DNA of 32,349 bases, from the IMG/VR virus record IMGVR_UViG_3300009506_000128, positions 1 to 32,349 of that record; one strand, 5' to 3'. Positions 1,590 through 7,921 of this stretch are shown in pieces; within the stretch, counting starts at the first letter, position 1; every line of letters begins with the position of its first letter. The notes under the pieces were generated by a model. The model was not told where the DNA came from. It saw nothing but the letters and a program-made list of their open reading frames with translations, and ran no database searches. The translations under genes were made by a program, and so were the position numbers. The stretch comes from a virus.

Positions 1590-2351
1590 TTATGCAGAAG
1601 CTTCTTCCAGATCATCTGCATCAGTTTGTTCTTGTTCTTGAATCATACGGGCAGTTTCCATCTTTGCCCACTTTTTCACACTCTTGTAGTAACCATGAGC
1701 TCTAACGTGTTCATAGTCATCGATTCGAAGATTGGGGATTTCCTGCAAAGCTTCGAGAAGCTCTGCAGCTGGCATGCGCTCATGCTCTTCAACTTCAGCC
1801 TTTACTTGATTACAAAGGTGAAGAACTCGAGGATTGATAATCTCATCCTCAGCAATCATTTCAGATGCCGACACTCGCTGTTTTTCACCAAACCTAGCAG
1901 CTCCACCAGGACCAGTCCCCTTTTCTACTACTTCATGAATTGGTTCTGGCTTGGTGTCTGTAATTGACTCACGAAGATGCTTGTCCGATGTTCTACGTCG
2001 TCGCTCTTCCGATGCATCAATAGCAGCATCGATATCAGGCTTACCATCAGATGTCATCATATTGCGAGCCTTGGCTTTTTTGGCAAAATATGCCTCGTAT
2101 TCTTCCTGTGTTAACAAGTTTAACACAGGTGGCCTACGGCTTAGCAATTTTCTAAAATCCATCGAGTTCTTGATGGCTGTAAAAGGAATGTGCTGCGAAA
2201 GATTGATTGGATCTCTCGACGGTGGAACAGTGAAACCTTCCACTCTTCCTTCACCAAAGTTGAATTCTAGAGACAACTGCGCATTCGAGATATTTTGAAT
2301 GTATACGTCGTGCTCTTCCCTGAAATACTCCGTAAAGTTCTTGACTGCCAT
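1590..2351 (-). CDS. Post-capsid head/neck protein, internal start (MAVKNFTEYF...)
   Basis: This 253-aa protein begins at an ATG with AGGAG 8 bases upstream, a much better ribosome site than the more upstream in-frame ATG at 2534. The N-terminal half looks beta-rich and contains VPPSRDPINLSQHIPF. The middle is charged (DASEERRRRTSDKH) and may be disordered. The C-terminal part is helical with Glu- and Gln-rich stretches. It directly follows the major capsid gene. Its place suggests a head-completion, neck or internal head component, but no family is named. The reading frame is open for another 61 codons upstream, which encode an RRXRR/PLMP-like segment (separate entry), so a 314-aa fusion is also possible. 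Confidence 0.7.
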   Translation of the reverse strand: MAVKNFTEYFREEHDVYIQNISNAQLSLEFNFGEGRVEGFTVPPSRDPINLSQHIPFTAIKNSMDFRKLLSRRPPVLNLLTQEEYEAYFAKKAKARNMMTSDGKPDIDAAIDASEERRRRTSDKHLRESITDTKPEPIHEVVEKGTGPGGAARFGEKQRVSASEMIAEDEIINPRVLHLCNQVKAEVEEHERMPAAELLEALQEIPNLRIDDYEHVRAHGYYKSVKKWAKMETARMIQEQEQTDADDLEEASA

Positions 2352-2534
2352 TGTCTTTCTCCTGATTGAGGAAACTGACTTGGAATGGAAAAGCTGGATA
2401 GCGAATGGATTCTTCGAGAAAACCCTCGCCTTTCCTTCCTTGAGGTATTTCCGCGCTAGTGCGGGTCTGGTGTATTCCAAGAATCTCTTCTCGGAATCCA
2501 TCACTAAAACCTCTTCGGAAGGCTGCCTCGCCAT
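2352..2534 (-). CDS. RRXRR/PLMP-like domain (IscB N-terminus-like), in frame with the next gene
   Basis: From the ATG at 2534, 61 codons precede the internal start at 2351. The residues VLVMDSEKRFLEYTRPALAR and KYLKEGKARVFSKNPFAIQL follow the layout of the RRXRR (PF14239) or PLMP domain that opens IscB-type nucleases: beta-strand, acidic residue, a PL(M)P-like turn, PARAR-like helix, KEGKA, basic patch, NPF-x-IQL. After IQL the family normally enters the RuvC domain; here only LFHSKSVSSIRRKT remains before the next gene's start. RuvC and HNH motifs are absent. GAGG lies upstream of the ATG. A strongly folded RNA ends exactly at the ATG. It may be a remnant, a domesticated stand-alone domain or an N-terminal extension. 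The domain match is by eye, not by profile. Confidence 0.55.
2359..2363 (-). promoter_or_regulatory. Ribosome-binding site AGGAG deciding the internal start at 2351
   Basis: On the minus strand AGGAG is followed by AAAGACA and then ATG. This is a near-consensus spacing and supports initiation at 2351 even though the frame is open upstream. It overlaps one copy of the 11-bp direct repeat. Confidence 0.7.
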
Positions 2535-2622
2535 GCACAGGCCGTTCCTCTTTTCTGTGCTCCGTAGAGCACGGGTCTTTCACCCACCGTGTCCTGCTCA
2601 ACCAGCCTATTCTGATTGAGGA
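2362..2622. repeat. 11-bp direct repeat pair flanking the RNA/RRXRR module
   Basis: The plus-strand sequence CTGATTGAGGA occurs at 2362-2372 and again at 2612-2622, exactly 250 bases apart. After one mismatch both copies continue with AC. The left copy overlaps the ribosome site of the 253-aa gene; the right copy forms one arm of a hairpin in the leader RNA. The copies bracket nearly all of the RRXRR-like ORF and most of the RNA. They could mark an insertion or a duplicated leader; chance similarity of two ribosome-site regions cannot be excluded. Confidence 0.6.
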
Positions 2623-2651
2623 GACAGTTTGTATTGCTCAATAAGCAAACT
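2535..2651 (-). ncRNA. Structured leader RNA upstream of the RRXRR-like ORF; omega-RNA/HEARO-like arrangement
   Basis: Four hairpins are packed into about 100 bases. In minus-strand order: AGTTTG/CAAACT with an inner TATT/AATA stem (2626-2651); CTCAATCAG/CTGGTTGAG, nine pairs with one G-U and a 6-base loop (2597-2620), extended by TGTC/GACA; GGGT-GAAAG-ACCC (2573-2585); and GTGCTC-TACG-GAGCAC (2557-2572), stacked directly on the previous one. The last GCAC can instead join GCACAG/CTGTGC (2535-2560), which ends at the ATG and leaves the GAGGAA ribosome site in its loop, so two mutually exclusive folds exist. HEARO/omega RNAs sit just 5' of IscB ORFs; identity with that family is inference. Confidence 0.5.
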
Positions 2652-2667
2652 CCCCGTATAACGGGGG

Positions 2668-2707
2668 TAAAATCTGGTGCGGTGACGGTGGAATCACCGC
2701 ACCAGAT
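2668..2707 (-). terminator. Rho-independent terminator after the major capsid gene
   Basis: A perfect 14-bp stem, ATCTGGTGCGGTGA pairing with TCACCGCACCAGAT (2672-2685 with 2694-2707), encloses an 8-base loop and is followed on the minus strand by TTTTA. It starts about 20 bases after the capsid stop codon. A smaller hairpin, CCCCGT/ACGGGG (2652-2666), lies just beyond it. This is the strongest terminator in the window and should set capsid transcripts apart from the downstream genes. Confidence 0.85.
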
Positions 2708-2726
2708 GATCGCTACCAACTACGTA

Positions 2727-4007
2727 CTACTTGTGACCCTTGGCGACCGCTCGAGCATTCGGGATACCGAAGCCGACCATTTCGCCGAACGCCCAGCCCT
2801 TGACGAGGCGACGGTGCGAGAACATATTGAACGGCTCAGAGAACAGTTCAATACGAACGCCCATCTCACCAAGGTATTCACTACCAGTGGCTGCGTAGAA
2901 CGTGCCAGCGGGAACGACTTCTTCAACGCCGGTACCAGCCGCAGTAATGATCTGCGCGTTCAAGATGTTGCCGATGTAACCGGCGAGGATGAGTTCGCGC
3001 TCGGTCACAGGGTCAACTGCCGTGGACATCGTTTTCACGACATCCGAGAGTTCCTGACGGTTGATGAGGAACTTCTCAACCATCAAGCGGTGACGCTCAA
3101 CCTGGTACCGAACGTCTTCAAACGCCGAGATACCGAGGGTGGCAAAGATGGTCTCGGCATTAACCGTGACCGCAGCACGATCGAGGAGTGCAAGACCGCG
3201 CTTGTCTTCCTCGAGTTCGATCTCTTGACGTGCCGTGTCCTGCGCACGATCAAGAACATCGTAGTTCATCTGATAGATGTCTTCGATGTCCACGGTCGGG
3301 AATGCCGTAACCTTGAACTCAGAAGGCTGGATGTAGCGACCATGCAGGCGAGACTCGATGGACTGACCATCTTGCCCAACCACCCACGCGGTAGCACGAA
3401 CGTCCTTCGCGATACGGAACAGCTCGCCCTGAGCGAGAGGTCGCACGCGATAGACCTTACGAGCCCAACCTTCGTAGTCGATGATGTCCTTGATCGGGAG
3501 CAAGAGTTCCTGACCAACGATAGCAAATCCCTCTCCCGTAGGATCGGTCATTGCCGAAGCCAGGACCTTGCGTCGATCATCGGCTTCCATCGAGTTCGAA
3601 GCTTCACGGTAGAACGTGCCAGGCGAAGCCTTCTTCGTAACCGTGTTCAACAAGTACGCGATTTGCTGCAAAGCGTCCTTGTCATCGTAAGCATTGACTT
3701 CACCAGACTTATCGAACATACGCTCGGAAAGTTTGGTACTGCCAACTGCCTGACGAATGCCACCACGGGTCTGCTCGCCAGCGTACGAAGTCGGGTTATA
3801 CGTTCCCGACTCATCCCATGTCTGCTCTTGCTCGTGCGAGGTAAAGTGTTGACGGCTCATAGCCGCAACACGATCTTGGCGTTGACGGTTTTGATGAACG
3901 GCCTTGTCAGTCACCGAATTGGCAGCCGCTTGGCGTTCTGCCTGGGTAGGCTGACGTGCCGCTGCACCGGCTGCTGCAACGCGTCGGTAAGGGTTCTTGA
4001 CCTTCAT
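2727..4007 (-). CDS. Major capsid protein (candidate)
   Basis: This 426-aa protein starts at an ATG with AGGAG about 8 bases upstream. The first 100 or so residues are basic, polar and Gln/Arg/Ala-rich (NPYRRVAAAGAAARQPTQAE), resembling a removable or flexible N-arm. The body has the mix of helix and beta segments expected of an HK97-like fold, with a long helix (about residues 205-230), a domain rich in YQMNYDVLDRAQDTARQEIE-type helix, and a late segment GTFYAATGSEYLGEMGVRIE typical of phage capsid cores. It lies downstream of the portal, protease/scaffold and decoration candidates and is followed by a strong terminator. Its base composition is clearly more GC-rich than its neighbours, consistent with codon bias for very high expression. 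Capsid identity comes from context and overall pattern. Confidence 0.8.
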   Translation of the reverse strand: MKVKNPYRRVAAAGAAARQPTQAERQAAANSVTDKAVHQNRQRQDRVAAMSRQHFTSHEQEQTWDESGTYNPTSYAGEQTRGGIRQAVGSTKLSERMFDKSGEVNAYDDKDALQQIAYLLNTVTKKASPGTFYREASNSMEADDRRKVLASAMTDPTGEGFAIVGQELLLPIKDIIDYEGWARKVYRVRPLAQGELFRIAKDVRATAWVVGQDGQSIESRLHGRYIQPSEFKVTAFPTVDIEDIYQMNYDVLDRAQDTARQEIELEEDKRGLALLDRAAVTVNAETIFATLGISAFEDVRYQVERHRLMVEKFLINRQELSDVVKTMSTAVDPVTERELILAGYIGNILNAQIITAAGTGVEEVVPAGTFYAATGSEYLGEMGVRIELFSEPFNMFSHRRLVKGWAFGEMVGFGIPNARAVAKGHK

Positions 4008-5133: not shown

Positions 5134-7800
5134 CTAAATTCCGAAACTAGACTTGCTCGATGCAACCTTGGTGGAACCAACAGCATTCCTGATAGCGTCG
5201 CGCTTGCCATTCTTTGATGCTACATGCTCCAAATTCCTAGTAGTCAATTGAAGATTACCAGCAGTCATTTGATGACGCAGGCCATTTGCTTCATTACGAG
5301 AAGCAGAGCGCGACTGACTGACAGGCTCAGTAGGAATAGACATTGCAACCATGTTTGATAGATCAGATTCAATCTGCATTAGAGCTTCATCACTCATCTT
5401 CATAACTTCGGATGTGCGATGAATGAGACCATCAATATGAGCTTCCCAAGCAGCCTTATCTGTTCCTTCAATTAGAGGCTCATTAATGGAAGCTTCAACC
5501 AGATGAACTGCAAGGTTCTCATCCATAGGCTCATATTCAAAACCACCAGTCAATGGACGTGGGTTAAGAAGAGCTTCGGTCATAGCCTCCTTAATAGGAG
5601 AATGCTCAAGGTTCAAAGCTTGTCGACGAGCTACAATTTTCATTGCGCGCACAAACCGATTGGTAAAATTGCTGAGATAATCTTCTTTTTCCTTCTGAAC
5701 CTCAGCAACCTTAGCTTCGAGACGTTTTTGGTATAACATCTCAAGACGAGCAGCATGTTTCTTAGTATCAATCTTGGTACTAGCCTGCTTTTCTTTGTGG
5801 TCTAATGTTACATCATCAAGAGCAGATTGGCTCAAATCCCAATCCTTATTATCATCACGCTTATCTGAATCATGCATCTCGGTAGAAGATAGATCTTTGG
5901 GATCACGGTCATGCTGTTCATCTTCGAGATCTGTTTCACGCCCTTCCAGCGTGTTATCTTTCTTATAATCCTTGGTCTCATGCTTCTCTTTGGTATCGGT
6001 TTCTTCGCCGTTACCAGTAGCAGTTTCAGTCTTCTTGTCCTTAGTACGTTTCTCAACAGAGTCCTTATCTGCATCATCCAATACAGACGAAGATTCAGGG
6101 TTACGATCTAAATTCAGCATATCGTCCATATAATGCTCGAGAACTTGAGCAACACGTGGACCAACAATAGCATTAGTTCGTTTGATTGCCCCACCAAGAC
6201 CGTATTCAGCAATCATGGTAAGAACAGCCTTAGCCAAATCATGGCCTGACTTATTAGCTGCTTTGCTGTCATTAGGAATATTTCCAGGCTTAACCACAAA
6301 CAGCGTGCCTTCTTTATCGAAAACACGAATGTTACCTACAGATGTAATTTCAGCCTGAAGATGCCGATAAGAATTTGCAAAACGGAGCATCGGTGGTCCT
6401 CCAACAAGGTTGTCTAACGCACGTGACAGGGTTTTTCCTTCATTCGAGCCACGCTTGGGAGCCGGAGGCTCAGATATACCAGCACTAGCTGGCGACATCT
6501 GCTGACCCGGACCTGTGGGCGTGAGACCCATCGCTTCTGGTGTTAAATTTTCAATAGGTGTTCCAAGAGCAGGCTCTGGTTCTAAAGGACCACTAGCCCC
6601 AACTTCAACATCTTCATCATCTCCAACATTGACATTAATTGTCACGTCAGAGCCATCATCATTAGGTGACACATCGATCTCAGATGTATCTTCAGGTGGA
6701 ATTGGTGGTGCACCGGCAGCTGGTGCACCACCTGGCGACGGAGCAAGGTTCTGAGGAGAAAGCTGAGCAGATTTCTGCATTGATGCTATCTTAGCATCAA
6801 CCTTTTTTTCAAGTTGATTAAGTCGAGACTGCAATACCAAAAGCTCAGACTCATTACGGAATGCATCACCCTTCTCTAGCTGTGCTACTTTAGCACTTAG
6901 CTGAAGAATTTCATACTGTTCAGCTTTAACATCGGCTGGATCATGAACTCTACTGTATTCATCAAAGACAACACCCTCACACCACTCAAAAGCTTTTGCT
7001 ATTTTACGTGGCTTTCCAGCAGTCTTATCTTTTGAGGCTTCAATAATAAATGCAACAGGATTGAAATCTGGATCTGAATCATCATATACTTTACCCTTAT
7101 TACGGGCAATATGACCACAGAACTCACTCCGTGTATATGCTACCTTACCACAGACATTACATCTAGTACGAACGCATGAACAGCCCATAGATCCATGACG
7201 AAGAATACCAGATTTTACGCCACTGGCAAACGAAGGATCTTTGGCTGAATCGATTGCAACAAGAAGCTCTACAAATTCATCTTTTACAATTTCACCACAT
7301 TTGCGACAATGAATACCAGTTTCAGGATCTCTACCATCCTCGGATGCTGTCTTACTATGACAGTTTGGGCACTCATCAAGAGGTGGAGATGAATCATTAT
7401 AGTGAGCGTCAACAATGAAACCACGTGCATTTCGTGGGTTATCGGCACGATGATTTATATGGTGTGGTTTGTTTTCGTAAGTTCGATAGACTTGCTTACC
7501 GAGTCTATGGTCAAAACGTAGCAATTCATGCTTGTGGAAAGCATCTTTATTTTCGTTAGCTACGTTAGCTGTATTCCCTCGAATTGCCTCAAAAATATAA
7601 TCTTCTGGATTTGGCGAGATGTCATATTCATCTGCCAGCATAGCCAATTTCTCTCTAAGATCTATTGGCTTCCTACCTGTTAAGAAATCACTGCTTTCGT
7701 TATTTTCATAACCAGCAGTTCTATTAAATGTGTTATTTTCTGAAACAGCAACGGCCAAGGTTTCCGCTGAGGCTATCTTGATGAAACCTTTTTTATTCAT
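5134..7800 (-). CDS. Zinc-bearing prohead protease fused to scaffold-like region (candidate)
   Basis: The 888-aa frame is started at the ATG at 7800, just inside the end of a 42-aa gene and after GAAGG; a 29-codon extension upstream is less likely. Residues about 40-295 resemble phage head-maturation proteases: a His cluster PHHINH (112-117), GFIVDAHY, then VELLVAIDSAKDP, GSMGCS with candidate Ser204, and VVFDEYSRVHDPAD near 277-290. A zinc ribbon (C144xxC147, C165xxC168) and a second Cys group (C207, C209, C214, C217, C228 and H230) are inserted. After it come a coiled coil (about 295-340), a Pro/acidic linker, a conserved-looking domain, a highly charged Asp/Lys/Glu stretch and a helical C-terminus, fitting a scaffold that the protease removes. 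It sits between portal and capsid. The protease call is by pattern only. Confidence 0.6.
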   Translation of the reverse strand: MNKKGFIKIASAETLAVAVSENNTFNRTAGYENNESSDFLTGRKPIDLREKLAMLADEYDISPNPEDYIFEAIRGNTANVANENKDAFHKHELLRFDHRLGKQVYRTYENKPHHINHRADNPRNARGFIVDAHYNDSSPPLDECPNCHSKTASEDGRDPETGIHCRKCGEIVKDEFVELLVAIDSAKDPSFASGVKSGILRHGSMGCSCVRTRCNVCGKVAYTRSEFCGHIARNKGKVYDDSDPDFNPVAFIIEASKDKTAGKPRKIAKAFEWCEGVVFDEYSRVHDPADVKAEQYEILQLSAKVAQLEKGDAFRNESELLVLQSRLNQLEKKVDAKIASMQKSAQLSPQNLAPSPGGAPAAGAPPIPPEDTSEIDVSPNDDGSDVTINVNVGDDEDVEVGASGPLEPEPALGTPIENLTPEAMGLTPTGPGQQMSPASAGISEPPAPKRGSNEGKTLSRALDNLVGGPPMLRFANSYRHLQAEITSVGNIRVFDKEGTLFVVKPGNIPNDSKAANKSGHDLAKAVLTMIAEYGLGGAIKRTNAIVGPRVAQVLEHYMDDMLNLDRNPESSSVLDDADKDSVEKRTKDKKTETATGNGEETDTKEKHETKDYKKDNTLEGRETDLEDEQHDRDPKDLSSTEMHDSDKRDDNKDWDLSQSALDDVTLDHKEKQASTKIDTKKHAARLEMLYQKRLEAKVAEVQKEKEDYLSNFTNRFVRAMKIVARRQALNLEHSPIKEAMTEALLNPRPLTGGFEYEPMDENLAVHLVEASINEPLIEGTDKAAWEAHIDGLIHRTSEVMKMSDEALMQIESDLSNMVAMSIPTEPVSQSRSASRNEANGLRHQMTAGNLQLTTRNLEHVASKNGKRDAIRNAVGSTKVASSKSSFGI

Positions 7801-7921
7801 CTTTTTTGGCCTTCTTCTGATCTGAAGTATCGGATTTAGGTACATCTTTTTTAGGATCTTGTTGTCCTTTGGAACTATCAGATACACCTAAAGTGGTCGT
7901 CTTACCTGTCTTTTTGAACAT
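7793..7921 (-). CDS. 42-aa lysine-rich microprotein
   Basis: ATG at 7921, stop TAA at 7795-7793. The product starts MFKKTGKTTTLGVSDSSKGQ and ends KKAKKDE: hydrophilic, rich in Lys, Asp, Ser and Thr, probably disordered. AAGGG lies about 9 bases upstream. Its stop overlaps the start of the protease/scaffold gene (GATGAATAA), the close packing seen throughout this operon, which supports it being translated and coupled to the next gene. It may be an internal head or scaffold-associated peptide; nothing in the sequence shows a function. Confidence 0.6.
   Translation of the reverse strand: MFKKTGKTTTLGVSDSSKGQQDPKKDVPKSDTSDQKKAKKDE

Follow-up and report, generated by a model that had tools for sequence, protein, structure and literature searches.

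Does the PLMP domain of the RNA-guided nucleases IscB and IsrB also occur, with an RNA of its own, where no nuclease accompanies it? The question is raised by a locus on the minus strand of a viral sequence, IMG/VR record IMGVR_UViG_3300009506_000128, positions 1 to 32,349 (32,349 nucleotides [nt], here called the window). A first-pass annotation, made from the letters alone, had proposed that a folded RNA followed by a PLMP-like module in this locus could be a reduced IscB/omega-RNA system. We find that a family of large phages carries a nuclease-free PLMP domain and its own conserved folded RNA beside the capsid gene. We found no report of PLMP-only proteins in the open-licence literature.

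A PLMP domain without a nuclease heads a phage protein

A gene-free gap of about 190 nt separates the capsid gene from an open reading frame (ORF) of 314 codons, which begins with an ATG at position 2534 and runs to 1590 on the minus strand. The 61 PLMP-bearing codons are the in-frame N terminus of this ORF, not an ORF of their own. Residues 9-56 align to positions 1-48 of the 174-position Pfam model PF14239 (RRXRR) and score 37.9 bits (expectation value [E] 2e-9), over its curated cutoff of 25 bits. TbaIscB and OgeuIscB are among the PDB chains found by a sequence profile of five relatives (E 6e-6 to 3e-5); phage tail tube proteins also came up weakly in this profile search (E 0.7-0.8) and were taken as chance. 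AlphaFold2, given 18 relatives, predicts a beta-beta-alpha-beta-beta fold over residues 9-48 (predicted local distance difference test, about 85-90), with strands at 9-12, 18-22, 36-41, and 44-48 and a helix at 24-32. In Foldseek, the top rank goes to IscB structures (probability 0.99, E 9e-4), with IsrB and the N domains of translation initiation factor 3 (IF3) after them. Pfam, the PDB profile, and the predicted fold thus agree on its identity, and the PLMP domain is real. The IF3 N-terminal domain has the same small fold, and an HHpred link between the two has been reported (PMC9581776), but the phage PLMP sequence groups with IscB and IsrB.

PF14239 scores over the cutoff in 13 of 15 related phage records, once in each and always at this site; the exceptions have degenerate PLMP sequences (Virus Rctr197k, 15 bits; L024, no PF14239 match). 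The PLMP codons are under purifying selection, with a ratio of nonsynonymous to synonymous substitution rates (dN/dS) well below 1 (for example, dN 0.09 and dS 2.2 between the window and L010), and PLMP is therefore translated.

The proposed resemblance of the first 60 codons to the RRXRR/PLMP domain thus holds for the PLMP part, whereas the RRXRR motif itself, the arginine-rich bridge-helix part of PF14239, is absent from the ORF. The proposed lack of nuclease sequence after it was borne out: RuvC was not found in the rest of the ORF by Pfam, PHROGs, or Foldseek, the 253-amino-acid (aa) C-terminal part has no HNH match, and no bridge helix, WED, or TI domain was recognized in the locus. PLMP plus an upstream RNA might still be read as a minimal, functioning RNA-guided DNA-targeting system. 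With every one of these domains unrecognized, no HEARO RNA (see below), and matches confined to PF14239 positions 1-53, we find this scarcely credible.

The fusion and a second start are present in all relatives found

A scan with the C-terminal part returned 20 loci and scans with PLMP returned further ones; together they include repeats of the same contigs. The C-terminal part gave no match in a scan of genome contigs. In every relative found that encodes the C-terminal part, about two dozen distinct contigs in all, PLMP is fused to it in frame, and among these close relatives it is never missing from the site. In addition, each of the 21 relatives scored possesses a second in-frame start at codons 53-64, preceded by a Shine-Dalgarno sequence with 4 or more matching bases. 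The universal fusion and second start argue that the locus is no recent mobile remnant, as the first-pass annotation had suggested it might be. Decay of an IscB insertion would account for PLMP homology without a nuclease, but it is contradicted by the presence of PLMP in every relative, a dN/dS far below 1, a covarying RNA, and a single conserved position, and we judge it very improbable. The 11-bp sequence CTGATTGAGGA occurs as a direct repeat, near 2361 and again near 2611. It was considered as a target-site duplication and rejected, as by eye it is not kept in relatives.

Clean absence of PLMP appears only at a distance. In the distant phages PaBG, Motura, Yoloswag, and Sen-NF, members of the C-terminal part's family (phrog_17686) are located elsewhere and lack PLMP, and PF14239 has no match anywhere in these genomes, in a search in which control genomes gave no match and the related phages did match. 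Either the window's lineage gained PLMP, therefore, or the domain was lost outside it. PaBG gp078, which lies between the capsid and sheath genes, was rejected as a relative of the C-terminal part since it belongs to another family (phrog_17324); the true relative is elsewhere in PaBG. Near the PLMP-less relatives in Yoloswag (L088, 7591-8667) and PaBG (L089, 1288-2337) are genes annotated as "CRISPR/Cas system associated," which adjoin DNA primase and resolvase genes.

A covarying leader RNA abuts the PLMP start codon

The first-pass annotation had placed a densely folded RNA ahead of the PLMP codons, ending exactly at their ATG, and this stands. Folding of minus-strand positions 2535-2651 (117 nt) yields -41 kcal/mol, which corresponds to z = -3.75 relative to 200 dinucleotide shuffles, and the 3' end abuts the ATG at 2534. 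The conserved RNA is longer than claimed, extending past 2651 to 2708 (Table 1). Seven leaders (the window and L010-L015) share 41 pairs, 25 of which show compensatory changes. Paired cells amount to 95%, compared with 40-49% after a shift of the partner by 1-3 columns, and in 0 of 500 shuffles was the paired percentage or covariation score as high as observed. Six of the seven pairs of helix 5 change on both sides; helix 4 does not vary within clade A. The covariance model R1 occurs in exactly one copy per record in six clade A phage records, each time abutting the PLMP ATG, and also finds L095, which was excluded from the building of the model (63.3 bits, E 6e-14); the match spans 1881-1982, and the ATG follows at 1983. 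As a sign of an ordinary protein segment, the first-pass annotation had named a constant N-terminal position in relatives combined with an absence of RNA covariation; the position is indeed constant, but the RNA clearly covaries (25/41 pairs, and L095).

Clade A leaders keep a G-rich, Shine-Dalgarno-like stretch and GUGY ahead of the AUG. The leader of clade B (L017-L029 and L047-L056, from distant phages) is shorter and has its own covarying hairpin, similar to helix 4, with both-side changes in 7 of 11 pairs.

It is the PLMP gene, not the capsid gene, that the leader accompanies. L011 and L014 have an extra gene separating the leader from the capsid gene, and divergent genes intervene in L015, where the capsid gene is not adjacent; in all three, the leader including H1 still precedes the PLMP start.

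Three further features of the leaders were observed. The loop CCACC of H1 (2672-2707) is complementary to GGUGG in the core (2583-2588), and a pseudoknot or conformational switch between them is possible; both sets of bases are invariant in the 8 leaders. L013 has two tandem copies of the H2 hairpin unit (about 5640-5690), and in L016 a tRNA-Met gene (1442-1518) occupies the gap that separates the PLMP leader from the capsid gene.

Table 1. Features of the PLMP locus (window coordinates unless another locus is named)
Feature	Position	Strand	Remarks
Major capsid protein gene	2727-4007	-	phrog_2522, E 1.6e-57; upstream neighbor of the leader
Whole conserved leader RNA	2535-2708	-	Capsid gene stop to PLMP start codon; 8 relatives align
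H1, 15-bp hairpin with invariant loop CCACC (C22-C26)	2672-2707	-	Both-side changes in 14/15 pairs
H2, hairpin CCCCG-UUAUA-CGGGG	2652-2666	-	ACC...GAG motif, present also in distant clade B leaders
Leader core behind covariance model R1, 99 nt	2535-2633	-	R1 matches in relatives
Helix 3 (UGUCU/GGACA) with inner stem	2590-2626	-	Covaries to UACUC/GAGUA in held-out L095
Tandem hairpins GGG-UGAAAGA-CCC (helix 4) and GUGCUCU-ACGG-AGCAC (helix 5)	2555-2585	-	
GAGG (Shine-Dalgarno-like) in small hairpin (helix 6), 12 nt before ATG	2539-2550	-	One-side changes only
PLMP domain (PF14239 N-terminal), beta-beta-alpha-beta-beta	2385-2534	-	Pfam, PDB profile, AlphaFold, Foldseek, dN/dS
Internal Shine-Dalgarno AGGAG (2359-2363) and in-frame ATG (2349-2351)	2349-2363	-	Junction of PLMP and C-terminal part
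C-terminal part, 253 aa	1590-2351	-	Phage family related to phrog_17686
PLMP-only gene	L064, 2498 onward; L065, 2498-2674; also L075, L076		Leader of two hairpins with Shine-Dalgarno

The leader resembles omega-RNA in layout

The possible HEARO/omega-RNA identity of the RNA, raised by the first-pass annotation, did not survive a family test. HEARO (Rfam RF02033) has no match in the window up to E 10, at gathering and permissive thresholds, and none that is meaningful in 15 related records, whereas the same model recovers all 12 plasmid IscB loci used as positive controls (117-165 bits) and also a phage IscB (136.9 bits). Local alignment of the phage leaders to 25 IscB/IsrB leaders gave similarity not above that of shuffles, apart from borderline cases. 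Since there is neither a HEARO score nor omega-RNA sequence similarity, the likeness on the RNA side is one of layout. The borderline cases include Virus Rctr197k (L006), with a 13-nt identity, GCCGAGGCGACAA, and the leader of L017; in L006 the identity lies about 25 nt ahead of the PLMP-like start and is with the 3' region of the IsrB omega-RNA.

The layout itself is close. Like IscB of the IS200/IS605-type OMEGA systems, the phage protein has an N-terminal PLMP domain by Pfam, PDB profile, and fold, and a structured RNA lies immediately 5' of the ORF, with hairpins and a Shine-Dalgarno sequence just ahead of the start. Unlike IscB, the phage locus lacks the bridge helix, RuvC, HNH, and TI, and its PLMP is fused to a phage protein at a fixed operon position. 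In the IsrB structure, PLMP touches the 3' end of the omega-RNA at a tandem pair of hairpins, SL7 and SL8, and SL7 holds the Shine-Dalgarno sequence of the IsrB ORF, for which the authors suggest a role in expression (PMC9581776); in OgeuIscB, PLMP recognizes the terminal hairpins of the omega-RNA (PMC9640706). Clade B PLMP sequences ("RVPVL...") resemble that of DtIsrB ("RVPVV..."), and the phage leaders share the tandem terminal hairpins and Shine-Dalgarno sequence of IsrB. The phage locus lacks the RuvC and TI of IsrB, however, and the layout of the 3'-terminal hairpins is all that the two RNAs share, with no demonstrable RNA homology. IshB, which consists of PLMP plus HNH, is likewise a reduced relative retaining PLMP, but the phage locus retains neither nuclease. 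TldR, a nuclease-dead TnpB of temperate phages (PMC13418256), is also OMEGA derived and phage encoded with a proposed regulatory role; it retains guide RNA and DNA binding, whereas the phage PLMP locus is without all DNA-targeting parts, and the role we propose for it is translational.

IscB and IsrB carry their own 5' RNA (PMC9640706, PMC9581776), and by this precedent the leader could be processed into a stable noncoding RNA that PLMP carries in trans as a ribonucleoprotein, perhaps to the virion or assembly machinery. Its length (~175 nt), its multiple hairpins, and its conserved single-stranded AAACUGU, GGUGGG, and ACAAA fit a folded RNA of this kind. On the other hand, no guide-like variable segment was recognized in the leader alignments (8 leaders), and the clade B leader reaches ~60 nt beyond H1 and no more. 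We think this explanation improbable.

A second PLMP-only family has a similar leader layout

PLMP-only ORFs also occur in a 252-kb phage (L064) and a 204-kb phage (L065), where the sequence downstream is unrelated to the window's C-terminal part: PLMP stands alone as a 58-aa ORF in L065 and is followed by other sequence in L064. Their leaders are nearly identical, with two short hairpins and then GAGGU just ahead of the ATG. An additional upstream hairpin differs in sequence between them and keeps its pairing. In a weakly resolved tree, their PLMP sequences are placed among IscBs, apart from the window family. As the two families are separate, a nuclease-free PLMP may have originated two or more times. 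The L064 phage also encodes a full-length IscB (L097, G015:C1:131000-133200; HEARO, 136.9 bits), so a complete OMEGA system and a PLMP-only gene coexist in one genome.

A proposed model in which PLMP regulates its own translation

How might a PLMP domain act without a nuclease? We propose that the IscB/IsrB family gave rise to this locus as a PLMP-only form, in which PLMP would bind its own leader, adjust how much long protein is made relative to short, and autoregulate translation; we consider the chances of this reading about even. On this reading, the locus joins PLMP and a structured leader, with nuclease and guide absent, to a phage protein encoded within the capsid operon. The two starts would then yield two proteins, a long PLMP form translated from the structured leader and a short form from the internal Shine-Dalgarno sequence and ATG. 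Binding of PLMP to the tandem hairpins and Shine-Dalgarno sequence in its leader would mirror its contacts with the 3' end of omega-RNA, and accumulating free protein would repress, or tune, translation of the long form. We propose the binding because the leader holds tandem hairpins and a Shine-Dalgarno-like GAGG before the PLMP start, as the contacts in IsrB and OgeuIscB need. Use of both starts, PLMP-leader binding, and the sign of regulation are plausible parts of this model. Autogenous translational operators are familiar from ribosomal-protein leaders and from phage coat and RegA repressors; the proposed logic, a protein binding its own structured leader, is the same, and the protein fold and the RNA differ. 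Of what the first-pass annotation had offered, a domesticated RNA-plus-PLMP regulator fits best.

Several observations weigh against this model. The leader has neither a HEARO score nor sequence similarity to omega-RNA beyond shuffles. R1 has no match in clade B, IscB, or IsrB leaders, and so does not recognize the clade A and clade B leaders as one RNA. Tandem hairpins close to start codons are commonplace, and the folding energy of the last 75 nt of the leaders is no different from that at other gene starts in the window; what sets the leader apart from these is covariation. The unremarkable single-sequence folding of this segment also fits a different explanation, in which the leader is an independent cis element, such as an attenuator or a site of translation control by a host factor, and PLMP has another job, such as an IF3-like contact with the ribosome or binding of another RNA. 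H1, a strong hairpin followed by UUUU, is terminator-like by eye, and PLMP resembles the IF3 N domain (Foldseek; PMC9581776). Such a cis element leaves unexplained why the RNA abuts the PLMP start despite the gene-order changes in L011, L014, and L015, and why the same hairpin and Shine-Dalgarno layout recurs at the unrelated PLMP-only genes of L064 and L065 and at IscB/IsrB. We regard it as unlikely, though a serious alternative to autoregulation by PLMP.

A bolder reading is also available. PLMP and a hairpin/Shine-Dalgarno leader might be an autonomous, ancient module of translational autoregulation upon which omega-RNA and IscB/IsrB were built, the window and L064/L065 families being free-standing forms of it, and the guide RNA would then have its origin in the 5' leader belonging to a PLMP gene. 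We consider this a long shot.

Neighboring genes

Elsewhere in the window, a 917-aa ORF (5134-7887) has a match to phrog_18299, a head maturation protease, in its first part and to unknown families in the remainder; it looks like a fused protease/scaffold-type gene. A 112-aa ORF (490-825) has a weak match to an HNH endonuclease (phrog_8446, E 0.006).

Implications for PLMP and OMEGA systems

PLMP is the sole domain of IscB/IsrB that was lost by Cas9. A phage PLMP with its leader and without a nuclease lets the RNA-binding or regulatory role of the domain be examined separately, and hints at what PLMP did before or after its membership in RNA-guided nucleases. The pairing of PLMP and leader also bears on how an mRNA 5' leader could turn into a guide RNA. 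If the proposed model is true, part of an OMEGA system would have been exapted in these phages as a component of a structural operon, and not as a DNA-binding regulator.
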